A stretch of DNA of 38,200 nt, taken from positions 1 to 38,200 of the forward strand of contig NZ_MDFN01000041.1 of NCBI RefSeq assembly GCF_001730525.1, read 5' to 3'. Both the position numbers and the translations under genes were made by a program. Source of the stretch: Arcticibacter eurypsychrophilus (lineage in GTDB: Bacteria; Bacteroidota; Bacteroidia; Sphingobacteriales; Sphingobacteriaceae). The notes beneath the pieces were generated by a model. The model was not told the DNA's origin, made no database searches, and saw nothing but the letters and a program-made list of their open reading frames with translations. Each line of letters starts with the position of its first letter. Position 1 is the stretch's first letter. Shown one piece after another: positions 6,399 through 21,747 of the stretch.

Positions 6399-6408
6399 TT
6401 ATTTGAAA

Positions 6409-8375: not shown

Positions 8376-8501
8376 TGAAAGATTATTTTTTTCAATGAGT
8401 TAACAAAAGGGATGCCGATTAAATATTTATATGGGAATAGTGCGTTTAAAGGATTCTGAGGCTTTTTTATGCCTTAAAACAAAATTTAGGTCTATATTAA
8501 T

Positions 8502-8537: not shown

Positions 8538-8562
8538 CGGAAACCATTTATCTTCCCTCCCT

Positions 8563-9516
8563 TTACTCTTCATGGATTTCGGACCATCTGTAACGGACAG
8601 CCCCTGTTTTAGGCTTAATAGGCGTTTCATGGTGATCTGCCCAGGCTTTTGTAAATGCTGCACCAAAATACAATATTAATGAGGAATAAAATACAAAAAG
8701 CAATAACAATACAATGGATGCAGAGGCACCATAAAAGTTATTCAGGTTGCTTTGGTTTAATAAGATCCGTAATACAATTTTTCCGATATTGAAAAAGATG
8801 CTGGTAAAAAAGGCACCGGCAATAGCAACGGTCCATAGAGGACGTCCATCTGGAAGATATCTAAAAAGAATGACAAACCATGCGGTTACGAACACAACAG
8901 AAAATCCATAGTTAAATATGCTTTTCAAATAATTTGCAAGTCCGGGCATCAAACTCACCAACTCATCACTCAGGTAAGTTTGCATTCCTTCGGCCAGGAT
9001 GGCTATACAGAAAAGCGTACCTGTTAACATAATGATAATTAAAGCCTGCCACCTTCCTCTCATCGTTTTCCAAAAGTTTTGTTTGGCAATCATCCTGATT
9101 TTCCATATTTGATTGATAGAATCCTTGATGATCTTGAACAGATTGGTGGCGACAAATATGAGAATAACGAATCCAATGATAGTTACATACCAGTTACTGG
9201 CCATTTCCCTGAAAGCTTGAAGGGTATCAATAATCTGGTGTGTGCTGTTTCGGCCAATAGTACTGGAGAGTCTGGAGAATACCCCTCTGCTTAAGTTTCT
9301 TTCAAACACAAGTCCCAATACCTGGATAATAATAATGAGTATGGGTGGCAAAGCAAACGTAGTAAAGAAAGCAGTAGCAGCAGCCATGCGTAACGGATCA
9401 TTGGCTGAAAAAGTTTTGAAGGCTTGTTTGAGAAGGCGCAAAAAAAGGAGCACTGCACCAGTTACTCCTTTTTTTGCACTTTCAGAGTGCAGACGTATAG
9501 AAAATTTAGAATTCAT
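8563..9516 (-). CDS. YihY/BrkB-family membrane protein
   Basis: 317-aa inner-membrane protein of the YihY (BrkB, virulence factor BrkB, older name RNase BN-like) family. Six hydrophobic spans are visible, with family-typical segments: 'AAATAFFTTFALPPILIIII' in the first helix, 'FKIIKDSINQIWKIR', 'YLPDGRPLWTVAIAGAFFTSI' and 'NFYGASASIVLLLLFVFYSSLILYFGAAFTKAW' near the end. Biochemical role in the family is not settled. The coding sequence contains a long perfect inverted repeat with an A/T run near its 5' end, listed separately. The preceding M3 peptidase gene is on the same strand 47 bp away. Confidence 0.92.
   Translation of the reverse strand: MNSKFSIRLHSESAKKGVTGAVLLFLRLLKQAFKTFSANDPLRMAAATAFFTTFALPPILIIIIQVLGLVFERNLSRGVFSRLSSTIGRNSTHQIIDTLQAFREMASNWYVTIIGFVILIFVATNLFKIIKDSINQIWKIRMIAKQNFWKTMRGRWQALIIIMLTGTLFCIAILAEGMQTYLSDELVSLMPGLANYLKSIFNYGFSVVFVTAWFVILFRYLPDGRPLWTVAIAGAFFTSIFFNIGKIVLRILLNQSNLNNFYGASASIVLLLLFVFYSSLILYFGAAFTKAWADHHETPIKPKTGAVRYRWSEIHEE
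9438..9477 (-). terminator. terminator-like hairpin inside the BrkB-like coding sequence
   Basis: Perfect 13-bp inverted repeat GCAAAAAAAGGAG / CTCCTTTTTTTGC with a 14-base loop, spanning roughly codons 14-26 of the BrkB-like gene. Read on the coding strand it gives a GGAG...CUCC stem followed by seven U, with a further ACTG/CAGT pairing in the loop. This has the shape of an intrinsic terminator but lies within an intact reading frame. Confidence 0.6.
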
Positions 9517-9563
9517 GCCCTGCCCTCTTCGATTAATATATTGCGGTAAACTGATTATTTACA

Positions 9564-11705
9564 TCATTTGCCAATTAAACCCCGGTTGATCAATAAAGGT
9601 TTTATATTAGGTGAGTGTCCGCGAAATTTAGTAAATAAAGTACCCAGATCTTCTGTATTTCCTTTGGATAAGATCATATCACGGAAGCGCTGGCCATTCG
9701 CTGCAGTCAATCCGCCATGTTCATTAAACCAGGAATACGCGTCATCATCCAGCATTTCAGACCATAAGTAAGCGTAATAACCGGCAGCGTAACCATTACC
9801 CCAGATGTGTAGAAAATAAGTGGAACGATAGCGGGGTGGAACCTGTGGCAAATCTAAACCTGCCTGGTGTAAGGCAGCGGTTTCAAATTGATCCGCATTT
9901 TTAATGGAATCTTTCGTAGTGATGGTATGCCATGACATATCCAATTTTGCAGCAGCTAAAAGTTCAGTGAGTGCATACGCCTGATTGAAAACAGATGCCT
10001 TCTTGATCTTTTCTACCAATGCCTGTGGCATTGATTTTTTCGTTTTGTAATGTATTGCATAATTTTTAAACACTTTAGGATCAAGTGACCAGTGTTCGTT
10101 GAACTGAGAAGGAAACTCAACAAAATCCCTGGAAACACTTGTACCGGAGATGCTTGGGTATTGCTGATTGGCAAAGAAACCATGTAATGCATGTCCAAAT
10201 TCATGAAACATGGTAGATACATCGTCAAAGCTTATTAATGCAGGCTGTCCGGCTGCCGGTTTAGTGAAGTTGCATACGTTATAGATAACTGGTTTTGTTC
10301 CAAGTAGCTTAGACTGTCCCACCATATTATCCATCCATGCACCACCAGATTTATTATCGCGTTTAAAATAATCACAGTAGAACAAGCCTATGCTTTGACC
10401 ATTCTTTTCAAACAATTCAAATACTCGTACATCCTTTTGATAGACAGGAAGATCTGTCCTTTCTTTGAAAGTGATTCCGTAAAGTAAATTGGCAGCATAG
10501 AACACACCATTTTGAAGTACGTTATTAAGTTCGAAATAAGGCTTAACATCATTCTCATCCAAGTTAAACTTAGCTTTACGTACTTGCTCGGCATAGTAAT
10601 CCCAGTCCCAAGGCTGCAGATTAAAACCACCGTTCTGCTGATCGATGACCGCCTGAAGTTCTTTGGCATCGCCTTTTACTTTTGCTGCTGATGCAGGCAC
10701 TAGTTTACCCAGAAATGTACTTACAGCTTCGGGAGTTTTAGCCATCTGATCCTGAAGTTTCCATCCGGCATAATTTTTAAACCCAAGAAGAGCTGATTTA
10801 TTTGCACGAATTTTAGCGATACGGATGATTGCCGAACGGGTATCATTGGAATCACTTTTCTCGGCACGGTTCCATGAGGCTTCAAATAGTTTCTGACGGG
10901 TTGCCCTGTTAGAGAGTGACTGAAGGTCGGGTTGTTGGGTTGTGTTTTGTAAAGAAATCAACCATTTTCCATCTAGTTTTTTTGCTTTAGCATCCTGTGC
11001 TGCCGCATCCTGTGTTTCAGCAGATAATCCTGCTAATTCTTCTTTGGTATTTACGGTTACTGATCCTGCTTTTGTTGCAGCTAATAACTGGTTTGTGAAT
11101 TTGGCACTAAGTCCGGCTTCTTCCTCATTCAGCTTTTTAAGTTTTATTTTATCAGCATCGGATAATTTTGCCCCTGCAATTTCGAATTGCTGATAATACC
11201 ATTCCGCTAAACGCTTTGATTCTGCATCCAGGCTAAGATTTTGCCTTTCGTTATAAATGGATTCCACCCGTTTAAATAATTCGGAGTTTAGATAAATAGC
11301 ATCCTGATGCGCTGCCAATTTTGGAGCTATTCCTTCCTGAACCTTTTGAAGCTTGGGATTGGTATTTGCTCCGGTAAGGAGATTAAAAATGCGATATACA
11401 CGTGTGAGAAGCTGTCCGCTCTTTTCCATCGCTTCAATGGTATTCTGAAAATCAGGCTTTTCTTTATTCTCAGAAATCTGCTGGACTTCCTTTAAATGCA
11501 CTTTCATGCCTTCTTCTATAGCCGGCTCAAAATCGCTATCTTTAATTTTATCAAAATCAGGAGCTTGATAGGCCAGTTTACTTACCTCAGCAAAAGGATT
11601 AGACGAAGTAAAGGAGTTTAAATCGTTCGATTGCTTTTCCTTGTTGCCACAGGAAGAAATCGCGAATAAGAGTGCTGCTAAAGAGCAGAAGTACAGTTGT
11701 TTCAT
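9564..11705 (-). CDS. M3-family metallopeptidase lipoprotein (Dcp / oligopeptidase A type)
   Basis: 713-aa zinc peptidase. The N-terminus is a lipoprotein signal (MKQLYFCSLAALLFAISSC), with Cys19 as the lipidated residue, so the enzyme is membrane-anchored in the envelope. The M3 catalytic motif HEFGHALHG has zinc ligands His501 and His505 and catalytic Glu502; a downstream acidic ligand region ('AYALTELLAAAKLDMSWH') follows. Length and motifs match peptidyl-dipeptidase Dcp and the M3 oligopeptidases. An open frame nine codons longer exists, but the ATG at 11705 gives the clean signal peptide. It probably degrades short peptides in the periplasm. It stands apart from its neighbours in function. 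Confidence 0.94.
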   Translation of the reverse strand: MKQLYFCSLAALLFAISSCGNKEKQSNDLNSFTSSNPFAEVSKLAYQAPDFDKIKDSDFEPAIEEGMKVHLKEVQQISENKEKPDFQNTIEAMEKSGQLLTRVYRIFNLLTGANTNPKLQKVQEGIAPKLAAHQDAIYLNSELFKRVESIYNERQNLSLDAESKRLAEWYYQQFEIAGAKLSDADKIKLKKLNEEEAGLSAKFTNQLLAATKAGSVTVNTKEELAGLSAETQDAAAQDAKAKKLDGKWLISLQNTTQQPDLQSLSNRATRQKLFEASWNRAEKSDSNDTRSAIIRIAKIRANKSALLGFKNYAGWKLQDQMAKTPEAVSTFLGKLVPASAAKVKGDAKELQAVIDQQNGGFNLQPWDWDYYAEQVRKAKFNLDENDVKPYFELNNVLQNGVFYAANLLYGITFKERTDLPVYQKDVRVFELFEKNGQSIGLFYCDYFKRDNKSGGAWMDNMVGQSKLLGTKPVIYNVCNFTKPAAGQPALISFDDVSTMFHEFGHALHGFFANQQYPSISGTSVSRDFVEFPSQFNEHWSLDPKVFKNYAIHYKTKKSMPQALVEKIKKASVFNQAYALTELLAAAKLDMSWHTITTKDSIKNADQFETAALHQAGLDLPQVPPRYRSTYFLHIWGNGYAAGYYAYLWSEMLDDDAYSWFNEHGGLTAANGQRFRDMILSKGNTEDLGTLFTKFRGHSPNIKPLLINRGLIGK

Positions 11706-11787
11706 CTTCTGAATAAAAGCACTAATGTACAAAAATCCTTAAACAAGCTTTAATAAATAGAAGTTTTGAATTCAGGTAATCATTGTT

Positions 11788-11937
11788 TTACAAATCGAAC
11801 TCCATACTTGCACTTAGACCTAGTTTGAACACATCGGGATGATCCAGATAGGTCAATCGTTTCACAACATCCAGACTGATAATTCTGAAAATATTACCTG
11901 GCTCTATGTTTAATTTCCGCATATGGGGAATTTCCTA
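11788..11937 (-). pseudogene. C-terminal remnant of an outer-membrane beta-barrel protein (DUF5686-like)
   Basis: An open stretch following an in-frame stop (TAG at 11935-11937) encodes a sequence including MRKLNIEPGNIFRIISLDVV, then KRLTYLDHPDV and ending GLSASMEFDL, stop at 11788. The 'ENIFK-I-R-D-V-RLTY-DHP' pattern and the final amphipathic strand resemble the C-termini of large Bacteroidota DUF5686 TonB-like barrel proteins (recalled, not searched). There is no room for the rest of such a protein, so it is read as the surviving 3' end of a deleted gene. A functional micro-gene starting at ATG 11922 (44 aa) is a less likely alternative. Confidence 0.5.
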
Positions 11938-12050
11938 AAGAATTAGGTATAAGTGGAGGCAATTATTCATTGGATCAAGCGGGAAAGACTGTAAACTGGA
12001 CTATTTTCTCAAATTAACACTTATCCGAAGGAAGTCAGTTCTATGTTTAA
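11922..12050 (+). pseudogene. plus-strand protein fragment with internal stop
   Basis: In one frame the plus strand reads YGEFPKELGISGGNYSLDQA, then GKTVNWTIFSN, a stop codon at 12015-12017, and after it HLSEGSQFYV and another stop. The composition (GNYSLD..GKTVNWTIFSN) looks like the beta-rich C-terminus of a secreted surface protein rather than random translation. No start codon or upstream domain was found. It would be a decayed remnant; chance cannot be excluded. Confidence 0.3.
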
Positions 12051-12164
12051 AACAGTTAAAATAAAAAATTTAAACCGAATGTAAAACGTCAATTACGCTA
12101 CTTCTATCTATTTTTTCTATTTAGATTCAGGGATTCATAAAAAAGGAAATTGATCAATAAAAGA

Positions 12165-12449
12165 TTAGTTTTGAGATACGGGAACTTTGTTTCTCTGCGG
12201 TTTATTCAATTTGTATAATTGCATTTCAAGCCTTGAATATTCAAAATTAAGCGCAATAAATTCTTTGTATTTTAATGCCTGCTCGTAATATAGTTCCAGA
12301 TCACCATACATCTTACATGTTTCTGAGAGGTCTTGTATGTTGGCATTAATAGCTTCCATCTTCTTAAGGATAGGTCGTTGACGCCTTTTTTCTAAAATAG
12401 AGATGTTAATATATGCAATGAATTGCTGAATTAAATTACCTTTTTTCAT
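12165..12449 (-). CDS. small hypothetical protein with coiled-coil character
   Basis: 94-aa protein, MKKGNLIQQFIAYINISILE onwards, rich in Lys/Glu/Leu/Tyr with helical heptad-like patterns ('KKMEAINANIQDLSETCKMYGDLELYYEQALKYKEF' region). No signal peptide, no membrane helix, no recognised domain. The open frame extends nine codons further upstream to an ATG at 12476; the ATG at 12449 is chosen because it begins the compact MKKGN sequence, but the choice is uncertain. Genes on either side are unrelated. Function unknown. Confidence 0.55.
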   Translation of the reverse strand: MKKGNLIQQFIAYINISILEKRRQRPILKKMEAINANIQDLSETCKMYGDLELYYEQALKYKEFIALNFEYSRLEMQLYKLNKPQRNKVPVSQN

Positions 12450-12603
12450 TTTTAATACCTTAACAGAATTAAGCATATCAGTACGATAAGCAACTTACTA
12501 TTATATACGGTTTAAAGCTAAAAATAGTTTCTCATAATATCCTTATTTTATACAAAAATTAAACATTACAATAATATGACTTTTAAATGTGATCTTTTCA
12601 AGC

Positions 12604-12639
12604 AAAAAAGCCCAGATTAAAACTTTCTAATCTGGGCTT
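12604..12639 (-). terminator. intrinsic terminator after the FMN-reductase gene
   Basis: Twelve-bp perfect stem AAGCCCAGATTA / TAATCTGGGCTT with an eight-base loop, followed on the minus strand by a run of six T. It begins about 20 bp after the stop codon. Confidence 0.88.
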
Positions 12640-12660
12640 AATACCTTTTTAAATCATAAC

Positions 12661-13230
12661 CTATTGATCTTCTTTAATTAACTTCAAACCCTTTGTCCAT
12701 CTTACTATAGACTTTAACATAATTTGGCCGGACTTAATAGACATTTCATTTGGAAAAAATTGATTTTGATCATTTATAAAATGTGTAAACATGGGTATAT
12801 TAACCTGATCGGTTAATGGAACCATATTCATGGTAGCCAAATCCCTTTTGAGATCATTGGATGCCCGGGTACCTGCTGAAATCCCAGCATAACTTACAAT
12901 ACCTGCTGCTTTATAAGCCCATTCATGTACCAGATATTCAATTGCATTTCTCAACGGGGAAGGGTATCCATGGTCATACTCTGCAGTTACAAAAACGAAA
13001 GCATCAGCTTCTTCTATCAATGCAGACCATTTTTTAGTATGTTCATGTTCATACTTTTGCAGCATGGGATGCATCGGCTCATTCATTAACGGAAGGTTGA
13101 TTTCGCCAAGATCTAAAACTTCAACATCAAAGTCACCAGTTTCTTTTGCTAGTCCGGCTATCCATTCCGCAACAAGGGGTCCTTTTCTACCCGGCCTTAC
13201 CGTAGAAGAAATAATCTTAAGATTATACAT
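12661..13230 (-). CDS. NADPH-dependent FMN reductase family protein
   Basis: 189-aa flavodoxin-fold oxidoreductase. The N-terminal strand plus phosphate-binding segment 'ISSTVRPGRKGPLVAEWI', the central 'FVFVTAEYDHGYPSPLRNAIEYL' and the following 'GIVSYAGISAGTRASNDLK' are the FMN-binding loops of the FMN_red family (ArsH/ChrR/azobenzene-reductase group). These enzymes use NAD(P)H to reduce quinones, azo dyes or metals through bound FMN, often as antioxidants; the substrate here cannot be told. Own transcript likely: terminator downstream and a 140-bp gap upstream. Confidence 0.9.
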   Translation of the reverse strand: MYNLKIISSTVRPGRKGPLVAEWIAGLAKETGDFDVEVLDLGEINLPLMNEPMHPMLQKYEHEHTKKWSALIEEADAFVFVTAEYDHGYPSPLRNAIEYLVHEWAYKAAGIVSYAGISAGTRASNDLKRDLATMNMVPLTDQVNIPMFTHFINDQNQFFPNEMSIKSGQIMLKSIVRWTKGLKLIKEDQ

Positions 13231-13371
13231 TTTGCTTATTTTTTAATTAACAGGCCTTTTACCTTTGACTTACCTGATTGATTTAAATACAACCATTCCA
13301 ATCAACTGTTCAATTTATAATTAAACGTGACTATTTTAAGACAAAGAACAAAGTAATTCGAGTTACGGATA

Positions 13372-14766
13372 CTAGGTGACGGGCATTTCATAGATCTCTT
13401 TTTCCAGAGGGAGAGTAAACCAAAAAGTAGATCCTTTACCTTCTTCACTAAAAACTCCCATTTTTCCTTTATGATGCTCAATAATCTGATAGGATATATA
13501 TAACCCTAACCCCAAGCCCTGATAAGATTCACGTACGCTGGATACTCTGTAAAACCGATTAAATAAATTTTGAATCTCCTTAGGAGAAATACCTATTCCA
13601 AAATCAGTAACTGAAATCAATAATTTATTAGCCTCAAACCGGGTACTGATATGGATCTTATCTGCGTCAGGGGAATATTTAATACCATTTGAAATCAGAT
13701 TTACAAGCACTTGATTAATGCGTATCCTGTCTGCGTAAATCCTGGTAGTTTTGTCAAGGCTCAGCATGATCTGGTGATTCCTATTCACATTACCTAATGT
13801 CTCTGCAACTTCTAAAATCAATTCATTGATATCAAAGATGTCCTTTTTTAAATAAAGAATGCCCGATTGAAGTTTAGTTACATCAAGAAGATCAAAAATC
13901 ATACTGATAATCCTATTGATCTGTCGATCCATTTTACTCACCAGCAATACCGAATCGGTGTTATTTTCCGCATTCATACGCATCTCCAATATTTGCGTAT
14001 AGGCTTTCAGACTGGTAAGAGGTGTTTTTAATTCATGAGAAGCTATGGCTAAAAAATCTTCCATCTCTTGTTCATGGCTAACTCGTGCACTAACATCGCT
14101 CAGATTAAGCACAATTGACTGAACTGAAGGATCGTTGAGCAAGTTGGTCATCGTATTTTCAACCCAAATTAATTCTCCATTATTTTTTACGATACGGTGT
14201 AATAAGGTAGCAGACTTCTCTTCATGGCTAGCTATTTTATAAAATTGTTCCTTAACAATCCCGTGATCTTCCTCCTTTATTAAATTCCATATCACTAACC
14301 CAGGTGTCTGGTCAATAGTATATCCGGTTATTCTATGAACCGCCAGATTACTATACTTGATCTCTCCTTTCAAATTGACCAGAATAAATGCGTTAGCACT
14401 CTTTTCAACCAATTTATTGAATCGCAATCCTTTTAATAATTCTTCTTTATCAGTTTTTAAATAAACCGGAATCATATAAATAATTAATCCACATTCTGCA
14501 ATAAATAAAAGCAATATGATCCATTCATTAAGAGATATATTAGGAGTACTGGTTAATAAAGACCATAAAATAACGATAATTGCAAGGCCTGTTGTAAATG
14601 TAGCAGGCCCCTTGCCTAGATAGCGGGTTGTGAAAACCACTAAACCTGTTAGAAAAAGATAAGATGAACTTCCGTATGCATCAGACAGCAAAGTTTTAAT
14701 TAAATAGTGGGCAGCTAAAACAAGAAGAAAACTTATAGAATATTTGACAAAATGTTGTTTAACCAT
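13372..14766 (-). CDS. PAS-containing sensor histidine kinase
   Basis: 464-aa membrane sensor kinase. About four hydrophobic spans lie in the first 102 residues, with a KdpD-DUF4118-like look but too short to be sure. A PAS domain follows (about 112-225, 'NAFILVNLKGEIKYSNLAVHRITGYT'), then the HisKA domain with phospho-acceptor His244 (IASHELKTPLTSLKAY) and an HATPase_c domain with N box (NLISNGIKYSPDA), G1 (VTDFGIGIS) and G2 (GLGLGLYIS). No response-regulator gene is adjacent; the nearest is the sigma-54 regulator about 5.5 kb away. It might sense envelope or redox state through the PAS domain. An orphan kinase by position. Confidence 0.92.
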   Translation of the reverse strand: MVKQHFVKYSISFLLVLAAHYLIKTLLSDAYGSSSYLFLTGLVVFTTRYLGKGPATFTTGLAIIVILWSLLTSTPNISLNEWIILLLFIAECGLIIYMIPVYLKTDKEELLKGLRFNKLVEKSANAFILVNLKGEIKYSNLAVHRITGYTIDQTPGLVIWNLIKEEDHGIVKEQFYKIASHEEKSATLLHRIVKNNGELIWVENTMTNLLNDPSVQSIVLNLSDVSARVSHEQEMEDFLAIASHELKTPLTSLKAYTQILEMRMNAENNTDSVLLVSKMDRQINRIISMIFDLLDVTKLQSGILYLKKDIFDINELILEVAETLGNVNRNHQIMLSLDKTTRIYADRIRINQVLVNLISNGIKYSPDADKIHISTRFEANKLLISVTDFGIGISPKEIQNLFNRFYRVSSVRESYQGLGLGLYISYQIIEHHKGKMGVFSEEGKGSTFWFTLPLEKEIYEMPVT

Positions 14767-14831
14767 TGTGATTAGCTTTCGCCTAAATGATTGGCTTACA
14801 ATGCAATTAAATCATAGAGATAAAATTAAGC

Positions 14832-14868
14832 AAAAAAAATGAGATCTATCAGGATTGACAGATCTCAT
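14832..14868 (-). terminator. intrinsic terminator after the ytxH-like gene
   Basis: Stem ATGAGATCT / AGATCTCAT, extended inward by TCA/TGA after one mismatch, followed on the minus strand by eight T. It lies about 30 bp past the stop of the YtxH-like gene. Confidence 0.85.
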
Positions 14869-14894
14869 CTACTACAAAAAATGCATTAGCTTAT

Positions 14895-15146
14895 TTAAAC
14901 TCCTAATGCACTCTCAGCATGATCAATATGATTATCAACTGATGGTTGACCAATCTTTATCGCATTGAGTCCTTTGGCTGCTAAGTCACTGGTTTTTTCT
15001 TTCGAACGTTCATAAACATCTTTAATCCAAGCGGTTATATCACTACGTGTTTCCCCGCCATCTTCTGGTGATAACAAAAGCCCGATTATAGCTCCAGCTG
15101 CAACTCCTGCAAGCATTGCAGCTATTATTTTTGATTGATTCTTCAT
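14895..15146 (-). CDS. YtxH domain protein
   Basis: 83-aa protein with one N-terminal membrane span with small-residue packing ('IIAAMLAGVAAGAIIGLLLSP') followed by a charged, helical tail (EDGGETRSDITAWIKDVYER...). This is the layout of YtxH-like general-stress proteins of unknown biochemistry. The open frame can begin at a GTG two codons upstream, but the ATG at 15146 is the natural start. Own transcript, ended by a strong terminator. Confidence 0.85.
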   Translation of the reverse strand: MKNQSKIIAAMLAGVAAGAIIGLLLSPEDGGETRSDITAWIKDVYERSKEKTSDLAAKGLNAIKIGQPSVDNHIDHAESALGV

Positions 15147-15267
15147 AGACACTACATTAAAATTAATTCAACAGTGTAAGTATAACAAAAAGATTGACGA
15201 AGTGTTGAAGATATTCTTAACAAGCTTAATTAACTGCAAGCTGAATGATCAGATTAGTATGAAGAGT

Positions 15268-15696
15268 TTACTTCAAAAAATAGTTATTGTTTTCAAATGC
15301 CTGCACCATTTCATATACCGATCTTTTACCAAAATCAATGCGTAGCTGATCACGGATTGGCTTCATCTGATAATGCATCGGGCATGGTTTTTCGGCTGAA
15401 CAAGTGGTTAATCCGATTACACAAGCAGTAAAAATCTCATTGCCATCAATTGCACGAACAATATCTACCAGGTACACGGAGGCGGGATTTATAATATAAA
15501 ACCCGCCGTTCGGACCTTTCGATGAAGCCAAAACTTTTTTACGTGTAAGTGTTTGCAGTATTTTACCCGTAAATGCAACTGGAGATCCTATAGCCTCCGC
15601 AATTTCAATGATACTTGCCCTTTCCTCTTTAACAGTCTTAGACGCTATGTATACCACAGCCCTAATGGCATATTCACATGATTTTGATAGTATCAT
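15268..15696 (-). CDS. Rrf2-family transcriptional regulator with cysteine triad
   Basis: 142-aa winged-helix regulator. The N-terminal 'LSKSCEYAIRAVVYIA' and the wing segment 'KGPNGGFYI' are Rrf2 hallmarks. Three cysteines, Cys92, Cys99 and Cys105 (in TACVIGLTTCSAEKPCPMH), sit where IscR/NsrR carry their iron-sulfur cluster ligands, so it probably senses NO, oxygen or Fe-S status. It is the last gene of the cluster with RIC; its own promoter (TAGGTTTG) lies in the RIC-rrf2 gap and is overlapped by a palindrome, suggesting autoregulation. NsrR-like function is inference. Confidence 0.92.
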   Translation of the reverse strand: MILSKSCEYAIRAVVYIASKTVKEERASIIEIAEAIGSPVAFTGKILQTLTRKKVLASSKGPNGGFYIINPASVYLVDIVRAIDGNEIFTACVIGLTTCSAEKPCPMHYQMKPIRDQLRIDFGKRSVYEMVQAFENNNYFLK

Positions 15697-15706
15697 ACTA
15701 TTATAC

Positions 15707-15721
15707 TAGGTTGCAAACCTA
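15707..15721 (-). promoter_or_regulatory. palindromic operator covering the rrf2 -7 element
   Basis: Minus strand TAGGTTTGCAACCTA is a perfect inverted repeat of TAGGTT / AACCTA around three bases, ten bp upstream of the Rrf2 start codon. It contains the complete -7 element TAGGTTTG, so a protein bound here would block the promoter. Autorepression by the Rrf2 protein is the natural guess. Confidence 0.5.
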
Positions 15722-15742
15722 TAAATTTTATTAAATCTTAAA
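15714..15742 (-). promoter_or_regulatory. promoter of the rrf2 gene
   Basis: Perfect Bacteroidota -7 element TAGGTTTG (15714-15721) with TTT 18 bases upstream (15740-15742) as a -33 element, overlapping the end of the RIC gene. Expected transcript start is about 10-15 bases before the ATG. Confidence 0.55.
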
Positions 15743-16691
15743 GCTTCATCGCTTTTTCAAGTTCAATTGCCTTTGGAAAAAGAATATTATTTTCCAAATG
15801 TACATGCTGGTGTAAATCATTTTCAAATTCCTCCAGCGTCCGGTATAAAATACGGTAAGACGTACAAGCATCCTGTGGAACTGTATAATTATTGGTCAGC
15901 TCATTTATCTCACTCAAATCTTCTCCTACATGCTCATGTTCCGCTTCCATCACTTCAATTGGATTTCCAACTTCTCCGAAAGAAGATCCCGGCAATGCTG
16001 CACCCTCTTTTTCAGCAAGTACAAGACTTTTAATATAAGGAAAGAGAATTTTTTCTTCTTTTTGTAAATGAAGACTTAAATCAGATGCAACTGCTGCAAA
16101 TACCTCAGCTATTTGAATTACTTCAGGATGGTTGGCACCGTGTACCCTGGCTACTTTTTGTGATATTTCAGATAGAAAGGGAATGGTATCCTTTACGTAC
16201 TTGTGATGCGTATTGATGATATAATCGCTTAAGAAGTCCAGATCCCACTTCTGATAATCCTGAGAGGGATTGCCTTGCTGTCCATCCAATTTCGCCAATT
16301 CTTCTTTTACATCAGCCTTATCAAGTCCTTTTTTATCACAAACCTGACTCAGTGTTTTCTTTCCACCGCAGCAAAAATCTATTCCTAGTTTCTTAAACAC
16401 TTGAGCTTTGCGATAATCTTTTGCTACAATCTCTCCTATTGTTTCTTCTTTTTGTTCAGAATCATTCAGACTGATTTTTACCTGGTATAATTCAGGACCA
16501 CTCATCAGATACTCCCATGTAAAAATATTGCCCCTTTCAGCCATCAATTGGTAATATAGTGGCTTTGGATCATGGTCAATTTGTATAATGAATGACTCTC
16601 CCAATGCTAAGGCATCAAACTTATCAAAGATTAAGGGATGTCTGAAACGTGGCTCGATTTCAGTAACATTAAGAATTTCAACTATTTCCAT
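15738..16691 (-). CDS. ric: DUF2249-fused RIC/ScdA iron-sulfur repair di-iron protein
   Basis: 317-aa protein of three parts: an N-terminal DUF2249 domain (about 5-75, 'EILNVTEIEPRFRHPLIF'), a ScdA_N/DUF542 domain (about 84-125) with the redox pair in GIDFCCGGKK (Cys107, Cys108), and a hemerythrin-like domain (about 150-315) with His-rich helices (NTHHKYV, LHLQKEEKILFPYI, EAEHEHVG, HQHVHLENNILFP). RIC proteins hold a di-iron centre and help repair Fe-S clusters after nitrosative or oxidative damage. The N-terminal DUF2249 is an addition to the usual about 220-240-aa form. The TTG eight codons upstream is rejected as start because it overlaps the -7 element; the ATG at 16691 is used. An FNR-type box and TAnnTTTG promoter precede it. 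Confidence 0.92.
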   Translation of the reverse strand: MEIVEILNVTEIEPRFRHPLIFDKFDALALGESFIIQIDHDPKPLYYQLMAERGNIFTWEYLMSGPELYQVKISLNDSEQKEETIGEIVAKDYRKAQVFKKLGIDFCCGGKKTLSQVCDKKGLDKADVKEELAKLDGQQGNPSQDYQKWDLDFLSDYIINTHHKYVKDTIPFLSEISQKVARVHGANHPEVIQIAEVFAAVASDLSLHLQKEEKILFPYIKSLVLAEKEGAALPGSSFGEVGNPIEVMEAEHEHVGEDLSEINELTNNYTVPQDACTSYRILYRTLEEFENDLHQHVHLENNILFPKAIELEKAMKL

Positions 16692-16712
16692 ATTGTTAGT
16701 ATTAATAGAAGA

Positions 16713-16720
16713 CAAATATA
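16713..16720 (-). promoter_or_regulatory. -7 promoter element of the RIC gene
   Basis: Minus strand TATATTTG, a perfect TAnnTTTG. The implied transcript start is near 16709, about 18 bases before the ATG. The FNR-type box is centred about 41-42 bp upstream of that start, the standard class II activator position. Confidence 0.6.
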
Positions 16721-16743
16721 TCTTTTATTTTATGACTTAATAA

Positions 16744-16757
16744 ATGATTGATGTCAT
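16744..16757. promoter_or_regulatory. FNR/Dnr-type box upstream of the RIC gene
   Basis: ATGATTGATGTCAT: half sites ATGA and TCAT around six bases, close to the TTGAT-N4-ATCAA consensus with one departure in the inner pair. It starts 53 bp upstream of the RIC ATG, matching the box upstream of the DUF2249 gene. Confidence 0.5.
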
Positions 16758-16781
16758 ATATTAAACCGGTTCATTAAACCT

Positions 16782-17111
16782 CTACCTACCAAGTTGCCTT
16801 CTACCTTCCTCTGTTATATTCTCATAGGTCCAGTTCGGCTCCCAAACTAAATCAACAAGTACCTCATATGCGGGATAAGCTTCCTCTAAACAGTTTTTAA
16901 CAGATTGGAGTATAGCCTCTCCCATTGGGCAATGTGATGAAGAAAGCGTCATCTCGATCCTTATTTTTGAATCTTCTGATAGGTCAATATGATAAATCAA
17001 TCCCATATCGATTACATTGATCTGAAGTTCCGGATCGAGAACAGTCCTTAAGTTTTCTATAATTTCCAGTTCTTTAAATGAGGATTGGTCTGTGATGTCA
17101 AATTTTTTCAT
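16782..17111 (-). CDS. MIP18/DUF59-family iron-sulfur assembly factor
   Basis: 109-aa protein of the DUF59 (SufT/PaaD/MIP18) family. Visible: 'NLRTVLDPELQINVIDMGLIYHI' with the D-P-E/D-x-x-x-(N)-x-(V/I)-x-D-x-G-L core, and the conserved cysteine segment 'TLSSSHCPMGEAIL' that in related proteins is needed for Fe-S cluster handling. Members help load or mature Fe-S proteins. Its start overlaps the end of the upstream membrane-protein gene by 14 bp, so translation is probably coupled. It belongs with the RIC and Rrf2 genes as an Fe-S maintenance set. Confidence 0.92.
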   Translation of the reverse strand: MKKFDITDQSSFKELEIIENLRTVLDPELQINVIDMGLIYHIDLSEDSKIRIEMTLSSSHCPMGEAILQSVKNCLEEAYPAYEVLVDLVWEPNWTYENITEEGRRQLGR

Positions 17112-18396
17112 GGCTTAATGATTTATCTTCGTGTTTAATCAGTATCACTAAATTGAATAGGTAAGATAATGATGAAATTAATAAACATCCAATACCTGTG
17201 GTCATCATAACCTGACTATATAAGAGGTAGCCGCAGAAGAACACAATGCAGAATGCGATATAGCTTATATACTGAAGTTTAAGGAGTTTGGAACTGTATA
17301 GATCAGCTGGCATAGGTATTTTCCTCTTACCACTTAAATGCTCATATTTTCGAACCCAAACTATAAAAGGTAATGTTTTAAAGGCCTGACCCATGATCAA
17401 TGCCGTGATCCATCCCATAAATAATAACATCCCATATAATGTAGAATAATGAACGGCTAAGCCATTTTGCTTTGCTGAGCTATAAATAATGATTGGAATT
17501 AGAATCAGAGCCACACTCAGTAAACTGATGGATATGACCGTTTTCAAAATCGGAATATCCAGTTTCTTCTTTAATCGAGAATCAAAACACTTCTTTACAT
17601 ACACGAAATAGCAGGTTAATCCGGCTAACAGCACTACCGCTATAAAATAAGTATGCACATTAACTCCGTAAAAATAACCATCAATCAGAAAAAGCAGAAG
17701 TGCTGAATTAACTAAATAATAACTCCAGGAAAGTAGATGGCTCAGTTGAATTCTGGACACTAAAAACATGGGAATTAATTTACAACTAACCCCTATTATC
17801 AACATCAGAAACCAACCCGCCAATCCCATGTGTGCATGAAGCCGAAGGTACTGCAGATGATTCTTAGGGAGAAAAGCATATTGAAAATTGAACGCAAGCA
17901 AGGTTCCCACAATGGCAGTTGCAGCAAGCCAAATGCTGGATGTGACGATAAACTCCTTATGAATAGAGGAATTCTTGCTTTTATTTGCAGTTTTAATTAC
18001 CGTAACGCAAAACGTTAATATAGCTAATGTAAGCAATAAACCTCCTGCCTGCATATGTATTCCCGGTTCGAAAACCCAAAAGGAGTATACCAGACAAAAC
18101 AATCCTGGAATAAACAACATAAAGGTAAACCAAGGTAATTTAGAGCTGTACAGGTCAGTTTCCAGTAGTACCGGCAACAATTGATAACATGCCCCAAAAA
18201 TAACCAGTGTGCCCCATCCCAAGGCTGCCAAATGAGTAATAGCCAGCAAGTGTGGATTAAAATAATGTCCCGAGAGATCTTTAATCGAAAACAGAAACAG
18301 CACAGCTAAAAGGAGAAAGCATAATCCGGATATAAAATAGTGAAGCAACACGAGTTTATACATGCCATCAGACTGCTTGGGCAGACTACTGCTCAT
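17098..18396 (-). CDS. polytopic membrane protein, NnrS / heme-copper-oxidase-subunit-I-like
   Basis: 432-aa protein with about 12 hydrophobic spans and little else. Three spans carry a related motif: His followed by Gly-Trp and then a Leu/Ile-Pro end (H55...GW61...LP75; H187/H189...GW195...IP209; H317...GW329...LP343). Such membrane histidines recall heme ligands of NnrS and of heme-copper oxidase/NO-reductase subunit I, but the chain lacks a confident set of six and I cannot assign it to either. ATGA overlap with the DUF2249 gene upstream and 14-bp overlap with the Fe-S factor downstream put it firmly in the nitrosative-stress operon. A role in NO handling or in heme/metal homeostasis is inference. 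Confidence 0.8.
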   Translation of the reverse strand: MSSSLPKQSDGMYKLVLLHYFISGLCFLLLAVLFLFSIKDLSGHYFNPHLLAITHLAALGWGTLVIFGACYQLLPVLLETDLYSSKLPWFTFMLFIPGLFCLVYSFWVFEPGIHMQAGGLLLTLAILTFCVTVIKTANKSKNSSIHKEFIVTSSIWLAATAIVGTLLAFNFQYAFLPKNHLQYLRLHAHMGLAGWFLMLIIGVSCKLIPMFLVSRIQLSHLLSWSYYLVNSALLLFLIDGYFYGVNVHTYFIAVVLLAGLTCYFVYVKKCFDSRLKKKLDIPILKTVISISLLSVALILIPIIIYSSAKQNGLAVHYSTLYGMLLFMGWITALIMGQAFKTLPFIVWVRKYEHLSGKRKIPMPADLYSSKLLKLQYISYIAFCIVFFCGYLLYSQVMMTTGIGCLLISSLSYLFNLVILIKHEDKSLSHEKI

Positions 18397-19214
18397 GACT
18401 TATAAATCAATAAATCCACTTTCCCATCATCTGTACTTTTTGTGAGATACATGAACCCTTTTTCCTCCAGATGAGGCAATAGATAAACTGGAATTTTTTT
18501 ATGGTACACATATAAAGCTTCTCCATCTCCAAGTTGCTGAAGGGTCTCCAGTATAGCAATCATAGGCTTAGGCATTTCGAGATCCCTCACATCAAGGGTT
18601 TTAATTTTTCCCTCAAAGTGTTTAATTTTCAAATTAAAATTGTCCGGATCATCAACAATTGGAAGGTCTGCCTTTTCTACAGCTTTTTGTAAGGTATAAT
18701 CCCTTTTAAAATAAGTAATTACTGACCCATCCTCTTCAAGATGTACTTCATTGGAAAAACCCTTAGCCTGCATTAAATGCAATAAAGGGACAGGTTCAAA
18801 TGGAGCAATAAGCTTTAGGCACTCTGAATCCTGAAGCTCTTTAACCGTACTCATAATTAATTTAAGCGGATCTTCCTGTCTGGATAAGATTGCACGAACA
18901 TCCAGCTCCTTTATATTTGATTTGTCGATCTTTATAGGATCCTTTTGAACTAAATTATTATTTGCAGGATCTTCCTTAATAATAAATCCTATATTTTTCA
19001 AAGCATCAAGAAAATCTGCTACTTCACATTTTCCAACCTTACATGCTGCCTCTATAGTAACGAAACCAGCAAACATATTTCTCAAAACTGGATTCCGAAG
19101 CTTTGCAAAATTCTTATTTAAACATTCCAACGCAACTATAACTCCCTCTTTATCCTCTTTTAATAGCGCACTTATTAACGTTTTCTTATTTATAGATCTG
19201 CCTGAGTGATTCAT
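18393..19214 (-). CDS. DUF1858-DUF2249-DUF2249 protein
   Basis: 273-aa cytoplasmic protein in three parts: an N-terminal helical DUF1858-like domain (about 8-75, 'ALECLNKNFAKLRNPVLRNM'), then two DUF2249 domains (about 103-170, starting IKELDVRAILSRQEDPLKLI; about 205-272, starting KIKTLDVRDLEMPKPMIAIL). DUF2249 is a SirA/TusA-like fold; the motif 'LDVR' opens each copy, where TusA has its Cys-Pro pair, so classical sulfur transfer through that cysteine is not expected. It is the first gene of the cluster; its stop overlaps the membrane-protein start (ATGA). An FNR-type box lies 51 bp upstream. Molecular role unknown; association with RIC proteins suggests NO or Fe-S damage response. Confidence 0.88.
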   Translation of the reverse strand: MNHSGRSINKKTLISALLKEDKEGVIVALECLNKNFAKLRNPVLRNMFAGFVTIEAACKVGKCEVADFLDALKNIGFIIKEDPANNNLVQKDPIKIDKSNIKELDVRAILSRQEDPLKLIMSTVKELQDSECLKLIAPFEPVPLLHLMQAKGFSNEVHLEEDGSVITYFKRDYTLQKAVEKADLPIVDDPDNFNLKIKHFEGKIKTLDVRDLEMPKPMIAILETLQQLGDGEALYVYHKKIPVYLLPHLEEKGFMYLTKSTDDGKVDLLIYKS

Positions 19215-19218
19215 CTAT

Positions 19219-19226
19219 CAAAGATA
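19219..19226 (-). promoter_or_regulatory. TAnnTTTG element adjacent to the DUF2249 start codon
   Basis: Minus strand TATCTTTG, a perfect match, only four bases before the ATG. If used, the messenger would have almost no leader. The FNR-type box would then be centred about 57-58 bp upstream of the start, near the class I position. Confidence 0.35.
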
Positions 19227-19264
19227 TACAATAGAAGACATTAATATCTTTTATTATTCTAAAT

Positions 19265-19278
19265 ATGATAAAGATCAT
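19265..19278. promoter_or_regulatory. FNR/Dnr-type box upstream of the DUF2249 operon
   Basis: ATGATAAAGATCAT is a fully symmetric ATGAT-N4-ATCAT palindrome, one base per side from the FNR/Dnr consensus TTGAT-N4-ATCAA. It sits 51 bp upstream of the first start codon of the cluster. Confidence 0.65.
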
Positions 19279-19350: not shown

Positions 19351-19530
19351 CTATGCTTCTTTATTTTTAAGTTCAGTAACTTCATTACGCATCTCCTGTG
19401 CCAATGTTTTAATTTCCTGCAAAGCTTTACGAACGCGAGTTCCTGCAGCACCACTAGCCTTGTTGTAAAACTTGTCAGCATCTACTTCCATGGAAGCAAT
19501 TAGCTCTTTTAATTTAGTGAAATTTTCCAT
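19351..19530 (-). CDS. histone-H1-like (Hc1-type) small protein
   Basis: 59-aa protein MENFTKLKELIASMEVDADK..., ending in lysine-rich TELKNKEA. This matches the short Bacteroidota proteins annotated as histone H1/Hc1-like: an N-terminal helix, the 'DADKFYNKASGAAGTRVRKALQEIK' core and a basic end. DNA binding is assumed from the name of the family. The frame extends seven codons upstream, but the ATG at 19530 is the usual start and is placed about 15-20 bases after the start predicted from the TATATTTG promoter. Monocistronic, with a terminator downstream. Confidence 0.85.
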   Translation of the reverse strand: MENFTKLKELIASMEVDADKFYNKASGAAGTRVRKALQEIKTLAQEMRNEVTELKNKEA

Positions 19531-19548
19531 AATAATATTCTTGTGGGG

Positions 19549-19556
19549 CAAATATA
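19549..19556 (-). promoter_or_regulatory. -7 promoter element of the histone-like gene
   Basis: Minus strand TATATTTG, a perfect TAnnTTTG, about 19 bases before the ATG. A TTTTT stretch about 19 bases upstream could be the -33 element. Confidence 0.6.
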
Positions 19557-19603: not shown

Positions 19604-21280
19604 CTATTTTATGCCTTTAAATGCCTTTAATCCACTTTCAAGATACTTGGCGTAACTCACTTTATCGTAGTCGGCTCCTATAGGCTCAACTAATAGATTT
19701 TCATCATGCCCTAAAAGAACATAAAAAGGTTGCGAATTAGCATTAAAATGACTGGCCTGAAAGTCGCTCCACTTATTACCTATTGTTTTAATTGACTTTC
19801 CTGACTTGGAGACAAATTGTTCATTTTCAGGAAGATCAGATTTATCGTCCACGTACAACTGAATCAAAACATAGTCATTACTGATGTGATTACGAACCAC
19901 TTGGTCGGGCCATACAGCAGCCTCCATTTTCCGACAATTCACACAGGCATGTCCGGTAAAGTCGATCATCACTGGCTTATTTACCTTTCTAGCATAGGCC
20001 ATTCCTTCTTCATAATCAAAAAATGCTATCAATCCCAGCGGAGCTTTAAACTTATCCACATATTTTGTTGGATGAGCAGATTCAGCTGTTCCCGAAAAAC
20101 CTTTATTCTGACTAAGCGAGGCTGTATATAAATCAAAATCCTGTGTCTGTTGGGGTGGCAAAAATGCTGATATAGATGTTAGTGGGGCACCCCACAAACC
20201 GGGAACCATATACATCGTAAATGATAATACGATGATAGATAGAAATAATCGGGGTACGGATAAAGATTGAATTGGAGAATCGTTTGCAAATGTTAATTTA
20301 CCTAAAAGATAAAGTCCCATTAAAGCAAAAATAACAATCCATAAACTCAGAAATACTTCACGGTCGAACCATTCCCAGTGATAAGCCAAATCTACATTGG
20401 AAAGAAATTTCAATGAAAGAGCAAGCTCTAGAAAACCCAAAACGACCTTGACGCTATTTAGCCAACCTCCCGACTTAGGAAGTCCTTGCATCAGCGAGGG
20501 GAACATAGCAAATAAAGCAAAAGGAATCGCAAGAGCCAGTGCAAAGCCAAACATCCCTATAGCAGGACCCAAAAGAGCACCCATTGTTGCAGCCTCCACT
20601 AAGAGATAACCGATTATTGGACCTGTACATGAAAAGGATACAAGTGCCAGTGTTGCCGCCATGAAAAAGATTCCAGCAAAACCCTTTTTATCTGAGTTTG
20701 AATCTGCTTTATTTACCCATGATGAGGGAAGTGTTAATTCAAATGCACCCAGAAAAGATGCAGCAAAAGCAACAAGCATCAGAAAAAACACAATGTTAAA
20801 AACCCCATTTGTGGACAAATCATTCAAAGCATCTGCGCCAAAAACAATCGTCACTATCAATCCTAGCAGTACATAGATCAGAATAATGGAGATCCCATAA
20901 ACCACAGCTTTGGTTATAGCTCCAGACTTAGTTGAAGCACTTTTAGTGAAATAACTAACCGTAAGCGGCAACATCGGGAAGATACAGGGCATAAAAAGAG
21001 CAGCTAATCCTCCTAAAAAACCAGCAATAAAAATAGTCCACAAAGAACGACTATCAGCTTCTTTTTTGATTACTTTTCCAGTGTTTGAAGCACTAACAGC
21101 AGCCTTATCTTTCGAAATAGAATTGGTAGAGGTTACTTGACTATCCACCTTGACAGGCTCAATATCCGTAAATTCGATATCGTCTGTATTAATTGCACCT
21201 GTACTGTCCTGTGCTTTAACATTTCCGGTAAACAGAAATAGCAATAACAAAAGAAGTACGTTATTTTTGAGTAATTTCAT
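19604..21280 (-). CDS. dsbD: DsbD-type thiol:disulfide interchange protein (beta and gamma domains)
   Basis: 558-aa protein moving electrons from cytoplasmic thioredoxin across the inner membrane. A signal sequence (1-23, ending VKAQ) and a 55-residue low-complexity linker precede an eight-span CcdA/DsbD membrane domain with its paired cysteines Cys99 (FMPCIFPMLP) and Cys218 (SFSCTGPIIG). The C-terminal periplasmic thioredoxin domain has the CVNC motif (Cys446, Cys449). The N-terminal alpha domain of E. coli DsbD is missing here; it is encoded by the separate gene just upstream, 20 bp away. Probably keeps periplasmic thiols reduced or supports cytochrome c maturation. Confidence 0.93.
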   Translation of the reverse strand: MKLLKNNVLLLLLLFLFTGNVKAQDSTGAINTDDIEFTDIEPVKVDSQVTSTNSISKDKAAVSASNTGKVIKKEADSRSLWTIFIAGFLGGLAALFMPCIFPMLPLTVSYFTKSASTKSGAITKAVVYGISIILIYVLLGLIVTIVFGADALNDLSTNGVFNIVFFLMLVAFAASFLGAFELTLPSSWVNKADSNSDKKGFAGIFFMAATLALVSFSCTGPIIGYLLVEAATMGALLGPAIGMFGFALALAIPFALFAMFPSLMQGLPKSGGWLNSVKVVLGFLELALSLKFLSNVDLAYHWEWFDREVFLSLWIVIFALMGLYLLGKLTFANDSPIQSLSVPRLFLSIIVLSFTMYMVPGLWGAPLTSISAFLPPQQTQDFDLYTASLSQNKGFSGTAESAHPTKYVDKFKAPLGLIAFFDYEEGMAYARKVNKPVMIDFTGHACVNCRKMEAAVWPDQVVRNHISNDYVLIQLYVDDKSDLPENEQFVSKSGKSIKTIGNKWSDFQASHFNANSQPFYVLLGHDENLLVEPIGADYDKVSYAKYLESGLKAFKGIK

Positions 21281-21300
21281 TTTAAGATAAGGTACTTTTA

Positions 21301-21747
21301 TTATTTAATCGGAATACTAAAACTTACTTCATCAGGAGGAAGACATTTTTGATCATTACAAACCATAAACTCAAGTTTACCCTTAATTACAGGTTTACCT
21401 GCCCTTATTTTAACTCTTTGTTGAAATATAACCGAATTCTCAAAATAGCTCACATTCATACTAAAAGCCTTTTCAAATTTTGTTACTGGCTTAGGCTCTG
21501 AGGTTTTACCCACAAGTGTATACTCATTTGAAGGATTAAAGGAAATAGAAGTAGGCACAGGCCCTCCGTCAGCTACATGCTGAGAATAGATATGCCATCC
21601 ACTGTTTATGGTGGCTTTGATCAGGATAATGGCTTCTGTCTTACTTAAACTCTTTGAGGCATAAGACCATTTCACCGGAGTAAGTATCTGAGCATGAATA
21701 GCTCCGCTTAGTAATACTGCGATTAAAATTAAGGTGACTTTTTTCAT
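21301..21747 (-). CDS. DsbD alpha-domain protein (stand-alone)
   Basis: 148-aa secreted protein: signal peptide MKKVTLILIAVLLSGAIHAQ, then an immunoglobulin-like domain with the DsbD-alpha active-site signature 'FMVCNDQKCLPPDEVSF' (Cys130, Cys135). In E. coli this domain is the N-terminal part of DsbD and passes electrons to periplasmic partners. Here it is a separate gene co-transcribed with the membrane/thioredoxin part 20 bp downstream. A near-perfect -7 element (GATATTTG on the minus strand at 21783-21790) lies about 35 bp upstream and may be its promoter. Confidence 0.9.
   Translation of the reverse strand: MKKVTLILIAVLLSGAIHAQILTPVKWSYASKSLSKTEAIILIKATINSGWHIYSQHVADGGPVPTSISFNPSNEYTLVGKTSEPKPVTKFEKAFSMNVSYFENSVIFQQRVKIRAGKPVIKGKLEFMVCNDQKCLPPDEVSFSIPIK

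Follow-up and report, generated by a model that had tools for sequence, protein, structure and literature searches.

A predicted pseudo-oxidase packed between DrpB-like and DUF59 genes: a conserved unit found mostly beside denitrification genes and joined in many Bacteroidota by a RIC protein and an Rrf2 regulator with a candidate operator

We analysed a stretch of 38,200 nucleotides from Arcticibacter eurypsychrophilus (NCBI RefSeq assembly GCF_001730525.1, contig NZ_MDFN01000041.1, positions 1 to 38,200 of the forward strand; hereafter the window), in which a cluster of five genes encodes two proteins with DUF2249 domains, which we take to be COG4309, a 12-span membrane protein here named HCOH, a DUF59 factor and an Rrf2-family regulator. 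The only genetic evidence that we found bearing on such genes comes from a drpAB double mutant of Thermus thermophilus. DrpB of this organism has the domain order DUF1858-DUF2249-DUF2249 and, together with DrpA, is required for nitrate control and for an active nitrate reductase (PMC6282519). In the deletion mutant, nar expression was no longer controlled by nitrate, and nitrate reductase activity was about one-tenth of that of the wild type (90 versus 900 units), with the level of NarG protein apparently not lower (PMC6282519). A connection of COG4309 with nitric oxide (NO) reductase and with the NsrR/NnrR regulons was made in 2005 (PMC1274295), and Pei et al. (2014, as cited in PMC11218638) drew a link between DUF2249 and the haem-copper oxidase superfamily. 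In Haloferax mediterranei, all four DUF2249 genes are up under denitrification (PMC11218638), and one DUF1858 gene of Bradyrhizobium is strongly NnrR-dependent (PMC6710368). A previous, sequence-only reading of the window had described DUF2249 as having no assigned job, which does not hold in view of these links to NO and nitrate reductases (PMC6282519, PMC1274295).

Pfam and NCBIfam scans recovered the five genes, all on the minus strand (19214 to 15268), with the positions and overlaps listed in that reading (Table 1). The DrpB-like and HCOH genes overlap by 4 bp (ATGA) and the HCOH and DUF59 genes by 14 bp, and the Rrf2 gene lies 41 bp downstream of the RIC gene. Comparison of gene order and sequence showed that the first three genes form a packed triad, consisting of a DrpB-like protein, HCOH as a predicted one-haem-type pseudo-oxidase and a DUF59 factor, which is a conserved unit in several phyla and mostly lies beside denitrification genes. 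In many Bacteroidota the triad is joined by RIC and Rrf2, and a putative operator covaries with the Rrf2 helix motif.

Table 1. Features of the module in the window. Positions are counted from the first nucleotide of the window; aa, amino acids.
Feature	Position	Strand	Basis
DrpB-like protein, DUF1858-DUF2249-DUF2249, 273 aa	18393-19214	-	Pfam
HCOH (name used here), 12-span membrane protein with haem-copper-oxidase fold, 432 aa	17098-18396	-	AlphaFold2, Foldseek, profile and cross-phylum alignments
DUF59 / FeS_assembly_P (MIP18/SufT-like) factor, 109 aa	16782-17111	-	Pfam, 49-member alignment
RIC/YtfE-type di-iron Fe-S repair protein, DUF2249-ScdA_N-hemerythrin, 317 aa from ATG	15738-16691	-	Pfam, TIGR03652
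Rrf2-family regulator, 142 aa, C92-C99-C105, helix motif AFTGK	15268-15696	-	Pfam, cysteines in relatives, operator covariation
22-bp palindromic operator-like site TAAAAGATATTAATGTCTTCTA, 17 bp before the DrpB-like ATG	19232-19253	-	De novo palindrome search, shuffles, genome-wide pattern search
Second operator-like site TAAAAGATATATTTGTCTTCTA, 14 bp before the RIC ATG	16706-16727	-	De novo palindrome search, shuffles, genome-wide pattern search

Of 198 genomes sampled from the class, 32 carried HCOH; by profile, it was present at full length (>330 bits) in 19 of 296 genomes of the phylum, six of which are among the class 32. Full-length matches were well apart from partial ones (<50 bits), which were oxidase subunits and small proteins. 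We fetched 50 stretches, 43 around full-length HCOH genes and 7 around split ones; the former, together with the window and locus L008, gave 45 loci with full-length HCOH, which include near-identical relatives and do not represent 45 independent events. Genome G128 was omitted because its HCOH gene is split over two contigs. DrpB was located directly upstream of HCOH at 44 of the 45 loci and DUF59 directly downstream at 41, with both in place at 41, and neighbouring genes of the triad mostly overlap or lie a few bases apart. A RIC gene that includes the hemerythrin part was present within 6 kb of HCOH at 37 loci (fused to DUF2249 in 33), an Rrf2 gene within 6 kb at 27, and a small DUF2249-only gene at 9. 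Since gene order is conserved across these loci, a chance arrangement of the five genes is ruled out. The sequence-only reading had proposed a module for NO and iron-sulfur (Fe-S) repair, with a survey of co-occurrence across Bacteroidota as its own test; the survey returned conserved co-occurrence, so that this part of the reading stood, while the operator and the link to denitrification clusters had escaped it. In Arcticibacter svalbardensis, the nearest named relative found, HCOH is 91% identical and gene order is identical. A scan of the genome contigs with the single HCOH protein gave one locus only.

The triad was also recovered outside Bacteroidota. Using tblastn against plasmid records, HCOH matched 85 records, mostly rhizobial, and DrpB matched 156, of which 15 were from Thermus (best E 3e-22). 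The DrpB-like protein of the window has both the domain order of DrpB and homology to it, being 31% identical over 90% to a DUF2249 protein of Thermus thermophilus (E 3e-22). Twelve plasmid regions were opened, 11 of which are annotated and were picked for diversity, two of these (Thermus and Paracoccus sp. TOH) by way of the DUF2249 match. A DUF2249 gene adjoined HCOH or lay at most three genes away in 11 of the 11 annotated regions, and a DUF59 gene (annotated as "metal-sulfur cluster assembly factor") was near HCOH in 9. A gene for nirK, nosZ or cytochrome d1 was likewise present in 9 of these stretches, the exceptions being Thermus and Paracoccus alcaliphilus. In the twelfth region, from Sinorhizobium meliloti 1021, profiles located all three triad genes side by side. 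The triad lies between hemN (adjoining nor genes) and nnrS-nirK in Rhizobium sp. CB3090, R. etli, Shinella and Ensifer, near nosZ in Mesorhizobium and Aminobacter, and next to nirK in Paracoccus sp. TOH. In Thermus thermophilus SNM1-7, we observed the order drpA-drpB, a 144-aa single-unit protein, protoglobin, full HCOH (identified by profile, E 6e-47) and DUF59. Haloprofundus and Azospirillum carry HCOH (1.8e-35 and 4e-27, respectively) with DUF2249 genes.

We then related HCOH to nitrogen-oxide (N-oxide) reductases, which were scored in the 198 class genomes at curated cut-offs for NosZ, NirK and qNorB, at no less than 380 bits for NirS (two genomes) and at no less than 566 bits for NorB-like proteins, where the list showed a gap. 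At least one such reductase was detected in 30 of 32 genomes with HCOH versus 50 of 166 without (Fisher p 7.5e-12, phylogeny uncorrected), and NosZ alone in 26 of 32 versus 44 of 166; the two HCOH genomes lacking any scored reductase were G089 (85% complete) and G146. By comparison of coordinates, NosZ or qNorB over cut-off was within 10 kb of HCOH in 7 of the 32 class genomes (NosZ in G015, G040 and G114; qNorB in G003, G005, G087 and G181). At individual loci, the module comes after NosD and an ABC permease (L062), is flanked by a NosD-ATPase pair on one side and an ABC permease on the other (L103), or precedes a cytochrome c and a NosZ-type gene (L100). The genome of the window encodes NosZ, NirK, qNorB and a second NorB-like protein, all on other contigs, and the other scanned window genes included no N-oxide enzyme and had general functions, among them potassium transport, sensor and sigma-54 regulators, DsbD-type proteins and a tRNA synthetase.

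The AlphaFold2 model of HCOH consists of 12 long helices (mean predicted local distance difference test [pLDDT] 91.1, predicted TM-score [pTM] 0.89), confirming the 12 spans of the sequence-only reading. In a Foldseek search of the PDB, cbb3 oxidase chains came first (8smr_E, TM-score 0.75, E 3.8e-7, 12% identity); the top 20 matches also included two NO reductases. HCOH had no match in Pfam at E 0.1, COX1 and NnrS (PF05940) included, in agreement with the earlier remark that no family is assigned to it; in NCBIfam, we observed a weak match only, to a cbb3 oxidase subunit (3e-5). Assignment to NnrS was rejected on the missing PF05940 match. By profile alignment, HCOH unit 1 aligns with transmembrane helices (TM) 9 to 12 of CcoN-like proteins (probability 96, E 2e-9), which places H55 on the second histidine of their HxH motif; H187-A-H189 aligns to this motif too, more weakly (probability 56).

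Catalytic subunits of haem-copper oxidases and NO reductases carry six metal-ligand histidines in TM2, TM6, TM7 and TM10. HCOH shares the 12-helix fold of these enzymes and lacks the six-histidine set. Among 13 members from Bacteroidota, Thermus, Alphaproteobacteria and Haloprofundus, the only invariant histidines were H55 and H187 (Q72, P75 and R274 being invariant too), and there was no conserved histidine in the third unit; the TM6-TM7 ligand set for CuB/FeB is absent from HCOH. In the 32 Bacteroidota members, H44 is invariant and H189 is kept in >90%. Because the third unit has no conserved histidine, the copper/non-haem-iron site is absent and two histidines are invariant, HCOH is likely a one-haem pseudo-oxidase without catalysis. 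In 2014, Pei et al. reportedly described three-unit, 12-span homologues of haem-copper oxidases with few (two conserved) histidines among denitrification genes, and are said to have described single-unit proteins as well. The features of HCOH would fit such three-unit families. In several genomes of another lineage (L111-L117), two adjacent small genes (about 135 to 160 aa) match HCOH units 1 and 2 instead, which would fit the single-unit proteins; at L111-L115 they sit with Rrf2, RIC and a gene of 606 to 645 aa, whose L111 copy had no Pfam or NCBIfam match.

The model of the DrpB-like protein (pLDDT 84.9, pTM 0.41) contains two small alpha/beta domains. Foldseek matches of its DUF2249 part in the PDB were weak and SirA/TusA-like (SirA-like 3hz7 and the TusA of 3lvj), none of the DrpB matches falling below E 1e-3 (best 1.6e-3), and the score with the Pfam TusA model (E 0.003, 17.7 bits) was below the cut-off of 28.6. 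TusA has its catalytic cysteine in a CPxP motif. The corresponding position in the second repeat of DrpB is Met214 in 29 of 29 aligned Bacteroidota members, and in 7 members from several phyla it is Met or Pro. Since the cysteine is replaced in this way, DUF2249 likely no longer transfers sulfur and serves as a carrier or docking domain with a TusA-like fold. The DUF59 factor matches PF01883 at 49.9 bits (cut-off 23.5) and stays below the SUF equivalogs (TIGR02945, 86.6 versus 143.4 bits; TIGR03406, 83.2 versus 202.6); its C61-P62 pair is invariant, with C61 found in 49 of 49 aligned members. RIC is over the cut-off of TIGR03652 (258.5 versus 204.7 bits). The listed RIC frame opens at TTG 16715 (325 aa), and an alternative start at ATG 16691 gives 317 aa, a length shared by the RIC proteins of several relatives. 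The ATG is the more likely start because the second operator-like palindrome occupies the sequence just before it, and this palindrome makes a separate promoter for RIC probable.

The Rrf2 protein scored just above the cut-off of the Rrf2 superfamily (74.7 versus 73.3 bits) and far below the NsrR (36.7 versus 182 bits) and IscR models; we thus rejected it as an NsrR orthologue on the equivalog score. Cysteines C92, C99 and C105, the predicted cluster ligands, were present in 32 of 32 relatives. A de novo search in 73 upstream regions yielded the palindrome TAAAAG-N10-CTTTTA with a log-likelihood of 163 to 170, compared to at most 51.5 in 12 dinucleotide shuffles, a gap somewhat flattered both by near-identical upstream regions, which favour the real set, and by fewer starts/iterations for the shuffles (25/10) than for the real runs (60/12 or more). 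Two other patterns were discarded: a first guess, AAGA[CT]...[AG]TCTT, fitted few loci, and the shortened AAAAGYA-N6-TRCTTTT was unspecific, occurring in 93 of 198 genomes. In 1,014,549 bases of loci, there were 41 hits of at least 14 bits, of which 27 were upstream of RIC, DrpB or Rrf2, the regions on which the motif was trained. A site of at least 14 bits was present within 6 kb at 22 of 27 loci with Rrf2 versus 5 of 18 without it (p 5e-4). The operator variant of the window, with up to 3 mismatches, occurs in the 4.69-Mb genome at the two window sites only. These are not the only sites of this kind in the genome, since a sister variant is found elsewhere (at a qNorB gene run, a second Rrf2 gene and two contig ends).

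The half-sites covaried with the regulator. Rrf2 proteins with the helix HT[V/L]GK paired with AAAAG[T/C] half-sites at 16 of 16 loci, and those of the window type (F-x-x-K, AFTGK) with AAAAGA half-sites at 10 of 10 (0/32 versus 20/20 half-sites, p 8e-15, for loci that are related and hence not independent). The motif lies in what we take, by IscR structures, to be the recognition helix. Loci with a site of at least 12 bits upstream of a module gene were included, which dropped six with lower scores (L047, L101, L103, L108, L110 and L111); the HT class contains the second circuit of the window's genome as a manual addition, and the ten F-type sites include three identical ones (L112, L114 and L115) and two from near relatives (the window and L008). 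Both Rrf2 types occur in the window's family and in family f36, so that the covariation does not stem from one split. From this pairing, the Rrf2 protein appears to read the palindrome.

The second Rrf2 of the window's genome, on contig C30, is of the HT type. A T-type site (19.3 bits) lies there 79 bp before two small frames and qNorB, and a weaker one (14.3 bits) 141 bp before the second Rrf2 gene, giving two parallel circuits, each with the matching half-site, as the pairing of helix and half-site predicts. The NO-reductase region on C30 (L181, genome G000, 5068-16044) contains the two small frames, which have no Pfam match, qNorB, the second Rrf2, a Cys/Met-metabolism enzyme, a DGC-domain protein, a 629-aa NorB-like COX1 protein and a FixO/cytochrome c fusion. 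Two more DUF2249 gene starts, similar and not identical, are cut by contig ends of the same genome (C4:136077-136199 and C10:98528-98650; L184 and L185). Each has a T-type site of 19.9 bits about 200 bp from the contig end, and these are probably further RIC-type genes.

We propose, with an even chance of being right, that the genes form an NO-switched module that protects or repairs the Fe-S enzymes of denitrification. Rrf2 would carry an Fe-S cluster on its three cysteines and repress from both palindromes until NO destroys the cluster and releases the repressor, as in NsrR, and RIC would release iron or mend NO-damaged Fe-S clusters; these two steps we regard as likely. The following ones are a guess to which we commit ourselves with slightly less than even confidence. 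HCOH would bind one b-type haem through H55 (TM2) and H187 and/or H189 (TM6), would be unable to reduce O2 or NO without a CuB/FeB site, and may capture or sense NO at the membrane; DrpB might dock HCOH to the cytoplasmic Fe-S supply, with DUF59 delivering the cluster. As a net effect, the Fe-S (perhaps other metal) centres of respiratory N-oxide enzymes would stay assembled during NO production. A role of the triad in maturing or mending Fe-S enzymes would predict the loss of activity in the Thermus drpAB mutant. Low activity with NarG protein present suggests that a multi-Fe-S enzyme is being matured or repaired, an option raised by the Thermus authors in their discussion (PMC6282519). Tentatively, and with some doubt, we further suggest that DrpB, HCOH and DUF59 could be one membrane-anchored machine of several bacterial phyla and partly of archaea, in which a single haem in a dead oxidase fold would capture or sense NO and control how Fe-S is delivered to the enzymes of N-oxide respiration. 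DrpAB, the "nitrate sensor" of Thermus, would be one aspect of this machine, and in Bacteroidota it would be switched by a new class of Rrf2 repressor with a readable code.

Several observations weigh against this proposal. The Thermus authors interpret DrpAB as a nitrate sensor (PMC6282519), and our searches of open-access papers returned no experiment that deals with HCOH or the Bacteroidota module. H189 and H44 are missing in distant HCOH relatives, Haloprofundus and Azospirillum have no DUF59 gene in the stretch shown, and within 6 kb there is no RIC at 8 and no Rrf2 at 18 of the 45 Bacteroidota loci. HCOH is not required for N2O reduction, since 44 of 70 NosZ genomes lack it, and most HCOH genomes have no scored nitrite reductase (present in 7 of 32) or NO reductase (present in 10 of 32), the latter being undercounted, as with an uncounted 443-aa COX1-family gene about 4 kb from the module in L046. 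Moreover, related genomes are not independent observations in the co-occurrence, motif and covariation analyses.

An alternative that we consider unlikely is signalling instead of repair, with HCOH and the DUF2249 proteins sensing nitrate, nitrite or NO and relaying the signal, as proposed for DrpA/DrpB. It accounts for the release of nar expression from nitrate upon drpAB deletion and for the repressor-like, membrane-binding character of DrpB (PMC6282519; same view in PMC7694296), and HCOH, being conserved with DrpB, could be the missing membrane partner. However, a sensor alone does not explain why nitrate reductase activity is so low in the double mutant despite NarG protein; furthermore, Rrf2 is already at hand for sensing at 27 of 45 Bacteroidota loci, and DUF59 and RIC are not signalling parts.

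We hold it to be similarly improbable that the proteins are assembly or electron-supply factors for NO, nitrite or N2O reductase, not serving Fe-S care in general. The importance of COG4309 for NO reductase was proposed by Rodionov et al. (PMC1274295), and the triad is found between norD-hemN and nnrS-nirK in rhizobia and by nos genes. The partner enzyme, however, differs by locus (nirK, nor, nosZ or nar), and most HCOH genomes have no detected NO reductase. DUF59 is conserved although, to our knowledge, NirK and NosZ contain no Fe-S cluster. It is very improbable that HCOH itself is a catalytic NO reductase or oxidase, a reading which the shared fold and the alignment of unit 1 and H55 with CcoN-like proteins could suggest and which we rejected on the missing metal ligands of the third unit and of TM6-TM7 and on the lack of a COX1 match. 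A general operon for Fe-S or oxidative stress without a particular relation to N-oxides, a kind of setting in which RIC, DUF59 and Rrf2 families do occur, is just as remote, given the enrichment of N-oxide reductases in HCOH genomes, the placement of the module by nir, nor and nos genes and the sister operator before a qNorB gene run.

Around the module, we observed additional features. The 41-bp gap between RIC and Rrf2 (15697-15737) contains, by eye, more inverted repeats (GGTTTGCAACC and TAGTAT...ATACTA), which may be a separate regulatory site. Upstream neighbours are a histone H1-like Hc1 protein (19351-19551) and a split DsbD-type pair (19604-21747); among the first 32 loci, Hc1 and DsbD matches were seen in the window and L008 only. 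In two relatives in the window's family, a gene for 396 to 398 aa lies between DUF59 and RIC (L038, 6756-7949; L100, 11463-12650), the L100 copy being without a match in Pfam and NCBIfam. Between RIC and DrpB, one or two additional genes are present at L048, L049, L055, L056, L058, L059, L065 and L101; those scanned (L058 and L065) encode hemerythrin domains, one with a cupin domain in addition. A phage link for the module was dismissed, as the phage collection gave no match.

RIC is already known, as are NO-sensing Rrf2 regulons, DrpAB, the placement of DUF2249 near NO reductase genes and that of haem-copper-oxidase-like families near denitrification genes. The DrpB-HCOH-DUF59 triad as a unit, its place behind drpAB, and the operator with its covariation were not found in our searches of open-access papers, although Pei et al. 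2014 could contain part of this. Few NO-stress circuits have been described in Bacteroidota, one being HcpR-regulated dnrN in B. fragilis (PMC1274295), and Rrf2 genes are enriched on metagenome scaffolds with clade II nosZ (PMC6264515). The module supplies a circuit with regulator, operator and targets in a class where NnrS is nearly absent (over cut-off in 1 of 198 genomes). It also brings three orphan families (DUF2249, DUF1858 and the haem-copper-oxidase-like membrane protein) into one setting and joins Thermus drp genetics to the rhizobial nir-nor region, so that the function of these proteins becomes testable in a few strains.

Compared with known systems, the locus shares the domain order of DrpB with Thermus, where drpAB was published as a bicistronic nitrate-sensing operon, and in SNM1-7 the HCOH and DUF59 genes follow drpB. 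Unlike in the window, the gene for the 144-aa single-unit relative and the protoglobin gene intervene there, a Crp/Fnr gene is nearby, and the stretch shown has a hemerythrin-domain gene and no annotated RIC or Rrf2. TusA sulfur carriers have a fold similar to that of DUF2249 (no match below E 1e-3), but their CPxP cysteine is missing in DrpB. RIC of the window belongs by score to the RIC/YtfE/ScdA family and differs by an extra DUF2249 fused at its N terminus. With the NsrR regulon of Proteobacteria (dnrN/ytfE, nnrS, hmp), the window has in common a three-cysteine Rrf2 protein, RIC and a 12-span membrane protein resembling haem-copper oxidases. The operators are different, however, with gATGyAT-N5-ATrCATc for NsrR (PMC1274295) and AAAAG-N10-CTTTT here, and the membrane protein of that regulon is NnrS, which HCOH is not. 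NnrS (PF05940) is reportedly likewise a three-unit, 12-span haem-copper-oxidase homologue with few histidines among denitrification genes; the two are nevertheless distinct, HCOH having no match to PF05940, and both occur near each other in rhizobia.

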